Shown in pieces: positions 2,366-39,606 of a stretch of 52,105 bases of DNA (position 1 is its first letter; the number at the start of each line of letters is the position of its first letter). Below the pieces are notes generated by a model that saw only the letters and a list, made by a program, of their open reading frames with translations, was not told where the DNA came from and searched no databases. Location: NCBI GenBank assembly GCA_944326535.1, contig CALVEJ010000004.1:1-52105 (forward strand), written 5' to 3'. Position numbers and translations under genes: made by a program. This DNA comes from Candidatus Gastranaerophilales bacterium (GTDB lineage: Bacteria; Cyanobacteriota; Vampirovibrionia; Gastranaerophilales; Gastranaerophilaceae).

Positions 2366-5020
2366 CTACTTTAATGTTTCAATAAGATCATTGATAGCCC
2401 TAATTTGAGCATTCAACTCATCAGCACGGGCTTGAGTTTCTTCAATCAATTCTTTCGGTGCCTTTTCAACAAAGTTTTTATTTTTGAGCCTGCCCTCCAA
2501 ACTCATCTTTTCTTTGTTGAGTTTTTCAACTTTCTTATTCTGTCTGGCGATTTCTTCATCAAAATTAATCAGACCTTCAAGCGGTATAATGATTTTTGAA
2601 TTACCGACAACAGCAGAGGCTGATTTCTTCGGCATCTGCATATCTTCACCCTTAAACTCAACGCTTTCTATTCTTGCAAGACGTTTGAGGTAAGGAACAA
2701 CCGCCTCAAAAATCGGTTTTTCCGCAGAGCTTGCCAGGACAGTAATATTCATCTGTGCTGAAAGCGGAATATTCAAGCCCTGACGAACGTTTCTCAATGA
2801 CTTAATTGTCTCAAATACAAGCTCCATTTCTTTGTTTTCTGTTTCAAAAACAAATTCTTTTTTGTATGTCGGAAACTCTGCCTTGATAATTCCGATAGTT
2901 TCTTTTTCCTGCGGAATAAGCTGCCATATAGCCTCTGTAATGTGCGGCATAATCGGATGCAGCATTCTCAATGCCATATCAAGAACATATCTCAAAACTC
3001 TTTGAGTATTGGCTTTTTGTGATTCATCCTGAAGCTGGATTTTTGCAATTTCAACATACCAGTCGCAGTATTCATTCCAGAAAAAGTCGTACAATACGTG
3101 GGCTGTCTCGCCTATTCTGTATGTTTGGATATTTTCGTTAACTAGCTTTGCAGTCTCATTCATTCTGTGCAAAATCCATCTGTCTGCAATTGTAAGGTTA
3201 TCCATATCAATTGCTTTGTTGTCCACACCTTCAAGGTTCATAAGCACAAATCTTGAAGCGTTCCAGATTTTGTTGGCAAAATTTCTGCCGTATTCAAACT
3301 TGTCTTCACTGACTTTGATATCCTGACCGCCGTATGTACACATTGATGTCATTGTAAATCTCAATGCGTCGCAGCCGTATTTATCAATAATGATAACTGG
3401 GTCAACAGTGTTGCCTTTTGATTTGGACATTTTTTGTCCCTTTTCGTCACGGATTAAACCGTGGATATAAACGGTTGAAAAAGGAGCTTTGCCCGTAAAC
3501 TCATACCCCATGGTAATCATTCTTGCAACCCAGAAAAATATAATATCAAAGCCGGTTACAAGTACTGATGTAGGATAGAATTTTTTGAAATCTTCAGACT
3601 CGGTGTTAGGCCAGCCCATTGTAGAAAAAGGCCACAATCCTGAAGAAAACCATGTATCCAGTACATCTGTTTCTTGAGTGTAATTTTCCGGATCGGGATT
3701 TTCTTTTGCAACAACCATTTCACCGGTTTTATTGTTATAATATGCCGGTATCTGATGTCCCCACCACAACTGACGGGATATACACCAGTCACGGATATTT
3801 TCCATCCAGCCGAGATAGTTTTTCTCCCATTTTTCAGGAATAAACTTAATCTCACCGGTTTTAACCGCTCTGATTGCAGCTTCTGCCAATGGTTTCATTT
3901 TTACAAACCATTGTTCACTCAAAAGCGGCTCAATTGTTGTATGACATCTCTGGCATTTGCCTACATTGTGTTCAAGATCCGTAATTTTGATTAAATCATT
4001 GTGATAGCGGAGCATATCAACAGTTTTCTTACGTGCTTCGTCACGATCCAATCCGTGAAGTTCTTTTGGAACCTCAACACAGGCTTTCATCTTGCCTTCG
4101 CCGTCAATAACCCAGATGGGTTTGAGGTTGTGGCGTTTTGCGATTTCGTAGTCATTCGGATCGTGCGCCGGTGTAATTTTTAAGGCACCCGTACCGAATT
4201 TTTTGTCTACATACTCATCGGCAATAATTGGAATTTCTCTGCCTGTAAGCGGAATCACAACTGTTTTACCGATTAAATCTTTGTATTTGTAGTCTGTCGG
4301 ATTAACGGCAACCGCAGCATCACCAAACATTGTTTCCGGTCTTGTTGTAGCAATTACAATCGCACCCGGCTCATCCTTTAAAGAATAGCTGATTTCCCAC
4401 AGGTGGCTTGCTTCTGTTTCGTATTCCGTTTCCACATCAGAAATAGCTGACTGGCAGCGGGGGCACCAGTTTACGATATAAGAACCTTTATAAATCAAAC
4501 CCTTTTCATACAACCGGACAAAAACTTCTTTAACTGCATCAGAACAGCCTTTATCAAGGGTAAATCTTTCTCTTGTTCTGTCAAAAGAAGCACCAAGGCG
4601 TTTGCACTGATCTAAAATAGCACTCTTATGCTCATTTGCCCAATCCCAGGTTCTGGCGAGGAATTTTTCTCTGCCGAGTTCATGGCGGTTTGTGCCTTCG
4701 GCTCTCAGTTGTTTTTCAACAACATTTTGGGTTGCAATACCCGCATGATCAGTTCCGGGAACCCAAAGAGTCTCATAACCGGACATTCTGTGATAACGGA
4801 CAAGAATATCCTGCAAGGTTTCGTCAATAGCGTGTCCCATATGAAGAACACCCGTAACATTTGGAGGCGGAATAACTATTGAAAACGGTTTTTTAGGCGA
4901 TTTTGCATCTGCTCTAAAGCACTCATTATCTTCCCAAAACTTGTAAATTCTTTCTTCCGTAGCTTTTGCATCATATGTAGTCGGCAATTCGCTAAAATTA
5001 ATACTTTTTGTATTATCCAT
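2366..5020 (-). CDS. valS: Valyl-tRNA synthetase
   Basis: This is an 884-residue class I aminoacyl-tRNA synthetase that charges tRNA-Val in the cytoplasm. The HIGH-type motif is HMGH (about residue 60), GTDHAGIATQ follows near residue 90, and KMSKSKGN lies near residue 530. Between them is the editing (CP1) domain, and the last ~65 residues form the coiled-coil tRNA arm typical of ValRS. Length is normal for the family. The start follows AGAGAGGTTAGGA on the minus strand. No T-box leader is seen upstream. It is probably a single-gene transcript, since repeat copy 1 begins 86 bp upstream. Confidence 0.97.
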   Translation of the reverse strand: MDNTKSINFSELPTTYDAKATEERIYKFWEDNECFRADAKSPKKPFSIVIPPPNVTGVLHMGHAIDETLQDILVRYHRMSGYETLWVPGTDHAGIATQNVVEKQLRAEGTNRHELGREKFLARTWDWANEHKSAILDQCKRLGASFDRTRERFTLDKGCSDAVKEVFVRLYEKGLIYKGSYIVNWCPRCQSAISDVETEYETEASHLWEISYSLKDEPGAIVIATTRPETMFGDAAVAVNPTDYKYKDLIGKTVVIPLTGREIPIIADEYVDKKFGTGALKITPAHDPNDYEIAKRHNLKPIWVIDGEGKMKACVEVPKELHGLDRDEARKKTVDMLRYHNDLIKITDLEHNVGKCQRCHTTIEPLLSEQWFVKMKPLAEAAIRAVKTGEIKFIPEKWEKNYLGWMENIRDWCISRQLWWGHQIPAYYNNKTGEMVVAKENPDPENYTQETDVLDTWFSSGLWPFSTMGWPNTESEDFKKFYPTSVLVTGFDIIFFWVARMITMGYEFTGKAPFSTVYIHGLIRDEKGQKMSKSKGNTVDPVIIIDKYGCDALRFTMTSMCTYGGQDIKVSEDKFEYGRNFANKIWNASRFVLMNLEGVDNKAIDMDNLTIADRWILHRMNETAKLVNENIQTYRIGETAHVLYDFFWNEYCDWYVEIAKIQLQDESQKANTQRVLRYVLDMALRMLHPIMPHITEAIWQLIPQEKETIGIIKAEFPTYKKEFVFETENKEMELVFETIKSLRNVRQGLNIPLSAQMNITVLASSAEKPIFEAVVPYLKRLARIESVEFKGEDMQMPKKSASAVVGNSKIIIPLEGLINFDEEIARQNKKVEKLNKEKMSLEGRLKNKNFVEKAPKELIEETQARADELNAQIRAINDLIETLK

Positions 5021-5105
5021 TCCTAACCTCTCTTTGTTATCAATTGATTATAAAATATCACAAAGAAAGTCAAATATCTAACCTGATAAACAGAATTTTT
5101 TAAAT

Positions 5106-5310
5106 TGTTCGAGAAAAATTCGTGATAAGGAGCACTCTGCCGAATAAAAGCTGACTAAAAGTCAGGTTTTATGAGAGGAAGACGTGAACGAATTTTTGGA
5201 GTGACATATTGAAAAGGTGAGTCTTTGAGCTTCGAAGGCTCGAAGCAAGGACTCCGTTAAGGGTTGACTAAATGTCAAGCCTTAATGGACGGGAAGACGA
5301 CACTAGATTA
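5106..5310 (+). repeat. Dispersed structured repeat, copy 1 (205 bp)
   Basis: This is the shortest full copy of a family also seen at 20712-21030, 39338-39565 and, truncated and inverted, at 39131-39218. It starts TGTTCGAGAAAAATTCGTG and ends GACGACACTAGATTA, and contains the shared core ACATATTGAAAAGGTGAG. AAAAATTCG near the 5' end pairs with CGAATTTTT further in. Two imperfect palindromes are present, one left (CTGAC/GTCAG tip) and one right (TTGAC/GTCAA tip), each with a G opposite a G inside the stem. No protein is plausible inside it. The last three bases form the stop codon of the neighbouring minus-strand gene. Its identity is unknown. Confidence 0.75.
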
Positions 5311-6321
5311 AATTTTAAAGGCAGGTTTTCTTGTTATCTCGGAAAAAGCTATTGCCGGTTTTGTATATCTTTCATCCTCGGCTACCCTTTTGTAGTAATC
5401 CTTTACAAGAATTATCTGGTTTTTAACATTTTTAAATCCGTTTTCCGACAAGAATTTTTCCGTTTTCGATCCGTTAGTCTGATATTTTTTGTTCAAAAAA
5501 TAAAGATTAAATCTTTTTCTGCGCATCATAATCTGGCTGATTGAAAAATTTATTACATCTTCCAGATATCCGTCAAAAGCGCTCACCAGATCCACATCGA
5601 GAGTAAAATTTTCATTGTCATCAGTTTGTATGCAGAAGTATCCTTTTATTGCATGTTCGCTGCCGTCCTCTATTACATATTTAAAATAAGAAGTTTTGTG
5701 CAAACCGCTGAAAATAATATTTTCATACTCACTCGGATTTTTAGCCAGCGAATATCTGAAATGCGGAAAAATCAAGTCATTGTGTATAGATGAAGCAGCA
5801 TCTGCATCAGCATCTTTAAAAGGACGGAAAAATCCTTTATCCAGATTAGAGCTTCCGACCTTAAATTCAGTCATTTTCCACAACTGTTCAGAAGCACAAA
5901 CCCTAAAACCGCAGCCTTTTGAAAAAAGCTCCAAAAGCTCTTCATGATTTTCATCCACTTTTACAGAAAATGTGTTTGCCCCCATCGCTCCGTATTTAGC
6001 AATAGCAAAGCTGACTAATTGTCTGCCTGTGTCATATCCGTTTTCATCAAGAAACAGTTTTGAAATTCTCCAGCTTTGAGGATTTCTCTCCTGAGACTTA
6101 AGAGTAATCAAGCCGCATATTTTATCATCCTCTATAGCAATATATGAATCCGGTGCAAATTTGCAGCTCAAAGGAAGCAGCCTGTTGATGAGATTTAAAG
6201 GAAACGGTACATAAGATTTGTAGCCAAAACCTGCATCAGCACTGTTCATATTAGATATCATTGATATCATTCTTTTGAGTTTTGGTATATCCGGCAATGC
6301 CAGACTTCTAATCTTTGCCAT
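5308..6321 (-). CDS. Putative double GNAT-family N-acetyltransferase
   Basis: The 337-residue protein resembles GNAT acyl-CoA N-acyltransferases. The N-terminal half (about 1-155) has the beta-strand/acetyl-CoA-loop pattern around YIAIEDDKICGLITL, then WRISKLFLDENGYDTGRQLV, then FSKGCGF. The C-terminal half (about 165-320) looks like a second degenerate GNAT fold (DADAASSIHNDLIFPHFRYS). The substrate cannot be assigned. No clear ribosome site precedes the ATG. The TAA stop is made from the terminal TTA of repeat copy 1, so insertion of that element may have reset the C-terminus. It could be a related fold of unknown function. Confidence 0.7.
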   Translation of the reverse strand: MAKIRSLALPDIPKLKRMISMISNMNSADAGFGYKSYVPFPLNLINRLLPLSCKFAPDSYIAIEDDKICGLITLKSQERNPQSWRISKLFLDENGYDTGRQLVSFAIAKYGAMGANTFSVKVDENHEELLELFSKGCGFRVCASEQLWKMTEFKVGSSNLDKGFFRPFKDADADAASSIHNDLIFPHFRYSLAKNPSEYENIIFSGLHKTSYFKYVIEDGSEHAIKGYFCIQTDDNENFTLDVDLVSAFDGYLEDVINFSISQIMMRRKRFNLYFLNKKYQTNGSKTEKFLSENGFKNVKNQIILVKDYYKRVAEDERYTKPAIAFSEITRKPAFKI

Positions 6322-20711: not shown

Positions 20712-21030
20712 TGTCCGAGAAAAATTCATGATAAGACTCTACCGAACAAAAACAGCCACAGGCTGTTTTTGTGAGAGGCAAGTGACTTGAACGAATTTTA
20801 GACAAAGCGAACCGCTGAACAAAGTGAAGCGAGTGAGTCTGGCTCCGAAGCTTAACGAAGTTAAGCGTAGACGAGGACACATTGAAAAGGTGAGCAGGTG
20901 ACGGCTGCGGTGATTGTAATCAGACCAGCACGCTGTGGGCGAAGCCCCCAGTGCCACTACGAAGGAAAACGGTGAGTTTTCCGTAGTGTCTGATTACAAA
21001 ACAGCCGGCGGCAACTGCGACACTAGATTA
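20712..21030 (+). repeat. Dispersed structured repeat, copy 2 (319 bp)
   Basis: This is the longest copy. It starts TGTCCGAGAAAAATTCATG and ends GCGACACTAGATTA, 23 bp before the rmuC ATG. The order is: left stem (AAAATTC with GAATTTT) enclosing a hairpin AAAAACAGCC/GGCTGTTTTT; a GACAAAGCGAAC block; hairpin GCTTAAC-gaa-GTTAAGC; core GGACACATTGAAAAGGTGAG; then a long composite right hairpin closed by TGTAATCAGA/TCTGATTACA, with inner GGGC/GCCC and CACTACG/CGTAGTG stems. ORFs here are short, unlike known proteins and not shared between copies. It occupies most of the 435-bp gap 20619-21053. Confidence 0.8.
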
Positions 21031-21053
21031 GATAGGCTTTACGGGAGAAATTT

Positions 21054-39337: not shown

Positions 39338-39565
39338 TGTCCGAGAAAATTTTGCGATAAGAAGGACTCCGTTTTGAGTTGACTAAATGTCAAGTCAAAA
39401 TGGATGGGAAGAGCAAAATTTTTGACAAAGCGAACACGCACAGCGAAGCGAGCAGTAGTGAGCCTGTCTCCGAAGCTTAACAAAGTTAAGCGCAGGTGAG
39501 GACACATTGAAAAGGTGAGCAGTGACGGCTCGAATGCTCGAGGCGGCAGCTGCGACACTAGATTA
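39338..39565 (+). repeat. Dispersed structured repeat, copy 3 (228 bp)
   Basis: It starts TGTCCGAGAAAATTTTGCG and ends GCGACACTAGATTA, 41 bp before the secD ATG. The left stem is AAAATTTTGC with GCAAAATTTT, a changed but still paired version of the AAAAATTCG/CGAATTTTT stem in copy 1. The left hairpin (CCG, TTTTGA, TTGAC loop GTCAA, TCAAAA, TGG) matches the right hairpin of copy 1 with compensating changes. GACAAAGCGAAC, GCTTAAC/GTTAAGC-type and GGACACATTGAAAAGGTGAG blocks follow as in copy 2. A promoter-like TTGATA-15-TATGAT (39312-39338) touches its 5' end. Confidence 0.8.
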
Positions 39566-39606
39566 TACAAAAATACTAGAAATTAAGGGGTATAAGAGAG
39601 GCAAAA

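Follow-up and report, generated by a model that had tools for sequence, protein, structure and literature searches.

Optional G-opposite-G hairpins on the tips of a small folded mobile element in Candidatus Gastranaerophilales

The stretch of DNA that we analyzed (the window; 52,105 nucleotides of contig CALVEJ010000004.1, assembly GCA_944326535.1) comes from a Candidatus Gastranaerophilales genome of 1.97 Mb in 107 contigs that is 93.4% complete. The window carries three copies of a small interspersed element on the + strand and a truncated copy on the - strand, and these copies and the parts of copy 1 can be delimited as follows.

5106 to 5313, + strand: element copy 1, TGTTCGAG ... CGACACTAGATTA followed by AAT, with identical 205-bp copies at C7:39251 and C52:4847
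5102 to 5105, + strand: left-flank target tetranucleotide AAAT, the same as the element's 3'-terminal AAAT (5310-5313)
5114 to 5197, + strand: left-end hairpin hp1, in which AAAAATTCGT (5114-5123) pairs with ACGAATTTTT (5188-5197), from fold and covariation
5135 to 5178, + strand: passenger hairpin at the hp1 tip (site A), CTCTGCCGA...GAGAGG, with G5150 opposite G5166, from fold and module family
5216 to 5304, + strand: right-end hairpin hp2, GGTG-A-GTCTT ... AAGAC-GA-CACT, from fold and covariation
5247 to 5293, + strand: passenger hairpin at the hp2 tip (site D), AAGGACTCCG...GGGA, with G5263 opposite G5279, from fold and its presence or absence in loci L101/L148
5298 to 5313, + strand: conserved 3' end CGACACTAGATTA and terminal AAT, from genome-wide end matches
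20712 to 21033, + strand: element copy 2, in which tip A has other passengers, an insert separates hp1 from hp2, and tip D carries a long insert
39338 to 39568, + strand: element copy 3
39362 to 39412, + strand: passenger hairpin at the hp1 tip of copy 3, with G39378 opposite G39394
39131 to 39215, - strand: 5'-truncated element copy, right half only, about 120 bp upstream of copy 3 and in opposite orientation

The first-pass annotation of this DNA had proposed that the left and right hairpins of copy 1 and the left hairpin of copy 3 share one plan, with a YTGAC-TAAAW-GTCAR tip and a G opposite a G, and direct reading confirms it. The left hairpin of copy 1 reads CTCTGCCG-AATAAAA-G(5150)-CTGAC-TAAAA-GTCAG-G(5166)-TTTTAT, the right hairpin of the same copy reads AAGGACTCCG-TTAAGG-G(5263)-TTGAC-TAAAT-GTCAA-G(5279)-CCTTAA-TGGACGGGAAGA, and the left hairpin of copy 3 (39362-39412) reads AAGGACTCCG-TTTTGA-G(39378)-TTGAC-TAAAT-GTCAA-G(39394)-TCAAAA-TGGATGGGAAGA. 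The outer stems, said to vary while staying paired, do so in all three; the flanks given for the modules are present in copies 1 and 3, and the supposed shift of the module from the right in copy 1 to the left in copy 3 corresponds to a D-like module at site A of copy 3. The hairpin tip TGACTAAANGTCA occurs three times in the window versus 0.44 ± 0.62 expected, a count that none of 100 shuffles reached, and across the whole genome CTGACTAAANGTCAG with up to two mismatches gave 54 matches versus 12 for a reversed-pattern control. As a single strand, copy 1 folds far above shuffles (z -7.2 as DNA, z -6.2 as RNA).

These hairpins are carried by an element with a core of 106-124 bp, TGTYCGAG...CGAYACTAGATTA plus NNN, which reaches up to 319 bp with passengers. 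The core consists of two structured end units in tandem: LE (TGTYC-GAG-hp1-GAG-T-GRCA), then RE (GGTG-A-hp2-GA-CACT), followed by the tail AGATTANNN. Two-ended elements form a size series, with cores mainly of 110-124 bp and then forms of 154-319 bp, and the added sequence lies at four fixed places: the hp1 tip (A), between the hairpins (B), within TTGAAAAGG (C) and the hp2 tip (D). The left G-G hairpin of copy 1 occupies site A and the right one site D. Across element copies the module proved optional, 75 of the 160 copies being bare cores (≤124 bp). At one orthologous site in relatives (L101/L148), the element is 155 bp long in the genome that has the D module and 112 bp in the one that lacks it, and its terminal NNN differs too, which fits recombinational exchange with another copy.

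The fold of the core is supported by an alignment of 24 cores, in which the two tandem units hold 28 pairs, 13 of them changed on both sides. Paired cells make up 95.2% of this alignment, versus 83.7% in shuffles and 37-53% in slid controls, and doubly changed cells number 83, versus 27.2 in shuffles. Because G-U pairs (about 63) greatly outnumber A-C pairs (about 7), the strand as read here is the folded strand, and fold and covariation place hairpins near both element ends on that one strand. Two internal loops, GATAAG and GTGAG, are conserved, and the feet of the hairpins are CGAG and GTGA, not GTAG/GTGG.

A DNA search of the window's own genome gave 50 matches to copy 1; about 45 copies of the element lie in this genome. 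The 3' end RCGAYACTAGATTA with at most one mismatch occurs 47 times there (versus 2 in the control) and the 5' end with up to three mismatches 50 times. Among the 191 family genomes compared, all of them metagenome assemblies, the exact 3' end is present in 21, from 7 of 41 genera, and is absent from most, while the highest numbers were 93 (G118), 58 (G103) and 49 (G049) copies. Such a patchy copy number, from 0 to 93 among family genomes, is the pattern of a mobile element. Almost all named records that match the middle of the element are metagenome assemblies of Candidatus Gastranaerophilales; one match in Gammaproteobacteria lies in coding sequence and was set aside as chance. The core element was not found in viral contigs or in phage and plasmid collections, two 3'-end matches in viral contigs looking like coding chance. 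The same collections gave 25 module matches, only one of which looks real: viral contig IMGVR_UViG_3300011008_000426 (L314) carries at 3448-3494 the module AAAAA-G-GTGCC-TTGAAT-GGCAC-G-TTTTT, with G opposite G. An Rfam search at gathering and relaxed thresholds returned no match, and neither the element nor the CTCTGCCGA hairpin family is described in the literature that could be searched.

Three pairs of occupied and empty sites (L099/L145, L141/L144, L086/L225) define the insert precisely as TGTYCG...ATTANNN, with the target not duplicated; the insertion in L099 versus L145 disrupts a reading frame. All three empty sites have the same polarity, the left tetranucleotide coming from the target and the right one from the element. 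For copy 1, an empty site was sought in relatives, where the gene order differs at this place. Position -4 to the left of insertions is A in 146 of 160 copies, and the other three target bases are free. In 27 copies, versus 11.9 expected (0 of 5000 shuffles), the four bases on the left are identical to those that end the element, and the resemblance is confined to that register. Across the 160 copies, the right terminal NNN is mostly one of a few types (AGAT, AAAT, AGAA), indicating that it travels with the element. In IS200/IS605 elements, a target tetranucleotide on the left flank has an equivalent terminal tetranucleotide at the right end (PMC6006769). The first-pass annotation had set double-strand-type terminal inverted repeats with target duplication against its own reading; neither of these two features, which mark MITEs of DDE transposons, was seen, duplication having been checked at the three empty sites. 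Truncated copies are of both kinds, 5'-truncated with an intact 3' end and also 3'-truncated.

When GC skew was taken over 20-kb windows in four genomes, 73 of 105 copies lay on the skew-positive strand, a count partly confounded with coding strand. The bias is strong in G049 (20/25) and G077 (16/21) and weak in G118 (21/34) and the window's own genome (16/25), and local skew from short flanks carried a weaker signal (50/84) than the 20-kb windows. The coding-strand majority likewise favors the element strand (69/105); since this overlaps the skew bias, we regard the strand bias as support and not as proof. With positive skew taken as a mark of the leading strand, the element strand belongs to the template of lagging-strand synthesis, into which insertion has been reported for IS608 and ISDra2 (PMC6006769). 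The right-hand gene is co-oriented with the element in 57 of 84 copies.

TnpA genes with matching ends, which the first-pass annotation had suggested looking for, were not found. Y1_Tnp (PF01797) had no match in the window's own genome (93% complete), and direct protein search found no Y1 in the element-bearing genomes G043, G049, G077, G159 and G185 (96-99% complete), although G043, at 99% completeness, contains identical young element copies. Across the family, RAYT-size Y1 genes (PF01797) occur in 62 of 191 genomes, 11 of the 21 with the element and 51 of the 170 others, and those RAYT genes whose flanks were read are bordered by their own GTAG-type hairpins, not by the element. TnpB was found in none of the 191 genomes, and RVT_1 reverse transcriptase neither in the window's own genome nor in the element-bearing G118 (93 copies), G005, G072, G098 and G171 of the same genus. 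A search for an autonomous copy, with a gene between matching ends, found none; one 2.5-kb end pair in G049 turned out to be two relics around hpt, tilS and cupin-like genes. Given these absences and the RAYTs' own repeats, a Y1 enzyme as the mover is unproven. Separately, loci L253, L254, L263, L251 and L257 hold RAYT genes with GTAG-type hairpins (GTTGGGCT...AGCCCAAC, GTGCAATT...), that is, an ordinary REP/RAYT system in the same family.

The target logic, the lack of duplication and the strand bias lead us to hold, with moderate confidence, that the hairpins are passengers in a small non-autonomous element that most likely moves by single-strand, IS200/IS605-like transposition in trans. A trans-acting enzyme would fold one DNA strand and cut it twice, following the flanking ANNN on the left and the terminal ATTANNN on the right; the excised single strand would then be inserted after ANNN in single-stranded DNA, mainly on the lagging-strand template. 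Several observations sit uneasily with this: neither an enzyme nor an autonomous copy was found, several element-rich genomes have no Y1, and strong constraint falls on the first target base alone, where the studied IS200/IS605 elements have fixed tetranucleotides. The frequent G-U pairs, moreover, would suit RNA equally well. If the hairpins were a selected functional RNA, such as a regulatory or processing signal, with dispersal only secondary, then the covariation, the conserved GATAAG and GTGAG loops and the frequent co-orientation of the right-hand gene (57/84) would be accounted for; however, copy number ranges from 0 to 93 between related species, gene context is not fixed and a reading frame has been interrupted (L099 versus L145), so that we find this explanation improbable. 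Spread through an RNA copy and reverse transcription, as in introns or SINEs, draws on the same RNA-like fold and its many G-U pairs, and on the 5'-truncated copies with intact 3' ends. Yet 5' truncation is ruled out as proof of reverse transcription by the 3'-truncated copies, the window's own genome has similar numbers of 5' and 3' ends (50 and 47), and RVT_1 is absent from this genome and the five others named above, which makes this route very improbable.

Two further explanations would supply a DNA-level mover. The element might travel as a small double-stranded circle under a tyrosine or serine recombinase with a 3-4 bp overlap (ANNN): the likeness between the left and right ANNN looks like overlap homology, the target is not duplicated, and the donor-borne NNN can be likened to the coupling sequences of conjugative transposons. 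Such a circle should, however, give both polarities, whereas all three empty sites show one; a few types predominate at the right NNN across 160 copies, and the element ends are not inverted repeats, so we consider this unlikely. Resident RAYT transposases could instead mobilize the element as a REP-type substrate, as their frequency in element-bearing genomes might suggest. This we rate as quite unlikely, given that the RAYT genes read have their own GTAG-type hairpins, that the element's feet are not GTAG and that at least six element-bearing genomes have no Y1. Single-strand movement of the element is plausible. The HUH/IS200/IS605 reading of the first-pass annotation was right in style for the host element, which bears single-strand signs, while its enzyme is unproven and was not found.

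The same reading had also made the mismatched G-G hairpin an element end, and this part did not hold, because the hairpin is located on the tip of either hp1 or hp2 and is missing from about half of all copies. Cores that lack the G-G hairpin are mobile too, which rules it out as the transposase end, and a role as the recognition end of a Y1 enzyme is unlikely; it is a passenger that the tips of the mobile element may or may not carry. Under single-strand transposition, tip hairpins would leave movement undisturbed and could therefore pile up and be swapped between copies by recombination, the YTGAC-TAAAW-GTCAR tip with its G opposite G being one such passenger.

The module at the hp1 tip of copy 1 belongs to a wider family with a life outside the element. 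The pattern CTCTGCCGA-N-GAGAGG is present in 179 of 191 genomes, from 38 of 41 genera, and the control matched in none of the genomes listed. At stem position 7, G opposite G is more frequent than any other pair without being universal: among 72 distinct CTCTGCCGA...GAGAGG modules, the pair there is G-G in 20, C-G in 18, A-T in 13 and T-A in 8. Stems are symmetric in 69 of 73 distinct inner sequences, and outer-arm pairing in the commonest length class falls from 0.78 to 0.53 when arms are exchanged between modules. The module flanks, with a TGCC bulge and GA opposite GA, resemble a k-turn, as judged from sequence. D-type modules (AAGGACTCCG...) have the same tip as the CTCTGCCGA family and different flanks, and a common origin of the two types is unproven.

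Of 91 distinct modules found elsewhere than in the element, 56 have a tRNA gene within 300 bp, versus 2.3% of the sequence; the figure is indicative, since these loci had in part been retrieved because they carry the module. In 52 of 82 module-tRNA pairs (27 of 399 in an unrelated-tRNA control), the ten bases leading up to the module match the neighboring tRNA; on the sense strand the match ends at tRNA position 11-12 or 17-20, and on the antisense strand in most cases at 11-14 from the 3' end. This tRNA-associated family includes at least the left hairpin of copy 1. Tandem arrays occur at tRNA-Val, Lys, Thr, Pro, Leu and Phe genes; each repeat consists of part of a tRNA end whose arm contains the hairpin, and an intact tRNA gene adjoins the array. 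Loci L389 (G077:C1:292000-294000), L390, L391, L392, L393, L394, L395 and L399 show this arrangement as 84-127 bp units with a CTCTGCCGA...GAGAGG hairpin, and many module arrays lie at contig ends. It is possible, and we propose it tentatively, that CTCTGCCGA-stem-loop-GAGAGG is a separate, very old class of nested hairpin in this bacterial family that enters loops of folded nucleic acids (partial tRNA D-arms, T-arm ends, mobile-element tips), with tandem duplication of the gene end around each hairpin keeping the tRNA gene intact.

Two observations concern this family and RAYT genes. A CTCTGCCGA hairpin lies within 1.2 kb of the RAYT gene at 5 of 28 RAYT loci (L241, L252, L253, L257, L262) versus 0.66 expected, an after-the-fact observation. 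One of these loci (L252 2163-3361, in G098) has a second large repeat (GACCCCGAC...GGTCCCACTCAGACAA) on both sides of the RAYT gene, with a CTCTGCCGA hairpin in one copy and a short loop at the same place in the other.

If our interpretation is correct, single-strand logic governs the movement of a 120-bp element that has two covarying hairpins and no enzyme yet seen near it, and its tolerance of large insertions at the hairpin tips makes it a natural experiment on the features that a single-strand transposase must recognize. The wider hairpin family, for its part, occurs within partial tRNA copies in nearly all genomes of a bacterial family that is abundant in the gut.

Among known systems, Rickettsia palindromic elements are, by general description, similar in being short selfish hairpins that nest in other sequences. 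The pneumococcal BOX element (PMC3049150) is also a modular, strongly folded small interspersed repeat with constant ends and an optional internal module, and its ends have been proposed to resemble the terminal inverted repeats of ISSpn2 (PMC3049150). The element described here differs in that its optional modules are of several kinds, at hairpin tips and intervening sites, and that no duplication is seen at three empty sites. REP/BIME sequences with their TnpA-REP (RAYT) proteins (PMC8266576, PMC2817692) share imperfect, mismatched palindromes and dispersed intergenic copies, whereas the element is a larger two-hairpin unit, has no GTAG/GTGG foot and is not the repeat that flanks RAYT genes here. 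Compared with IS200/IS605 elements, it differs in that no TnpA or TnpB with matching ends was found, in its single fixed target base and in ends that carry optional hairpin passengers of up to 200 bp. With IS200/IS605 and their non-autonomous derivatives (PATE), however, it shares subterminal hairpins at both ends, strand specificity and the absence of target duplication, and the likeness of the left target tetranucleotide to the right terminal one and a preference for the lagging strand may be further points in common.
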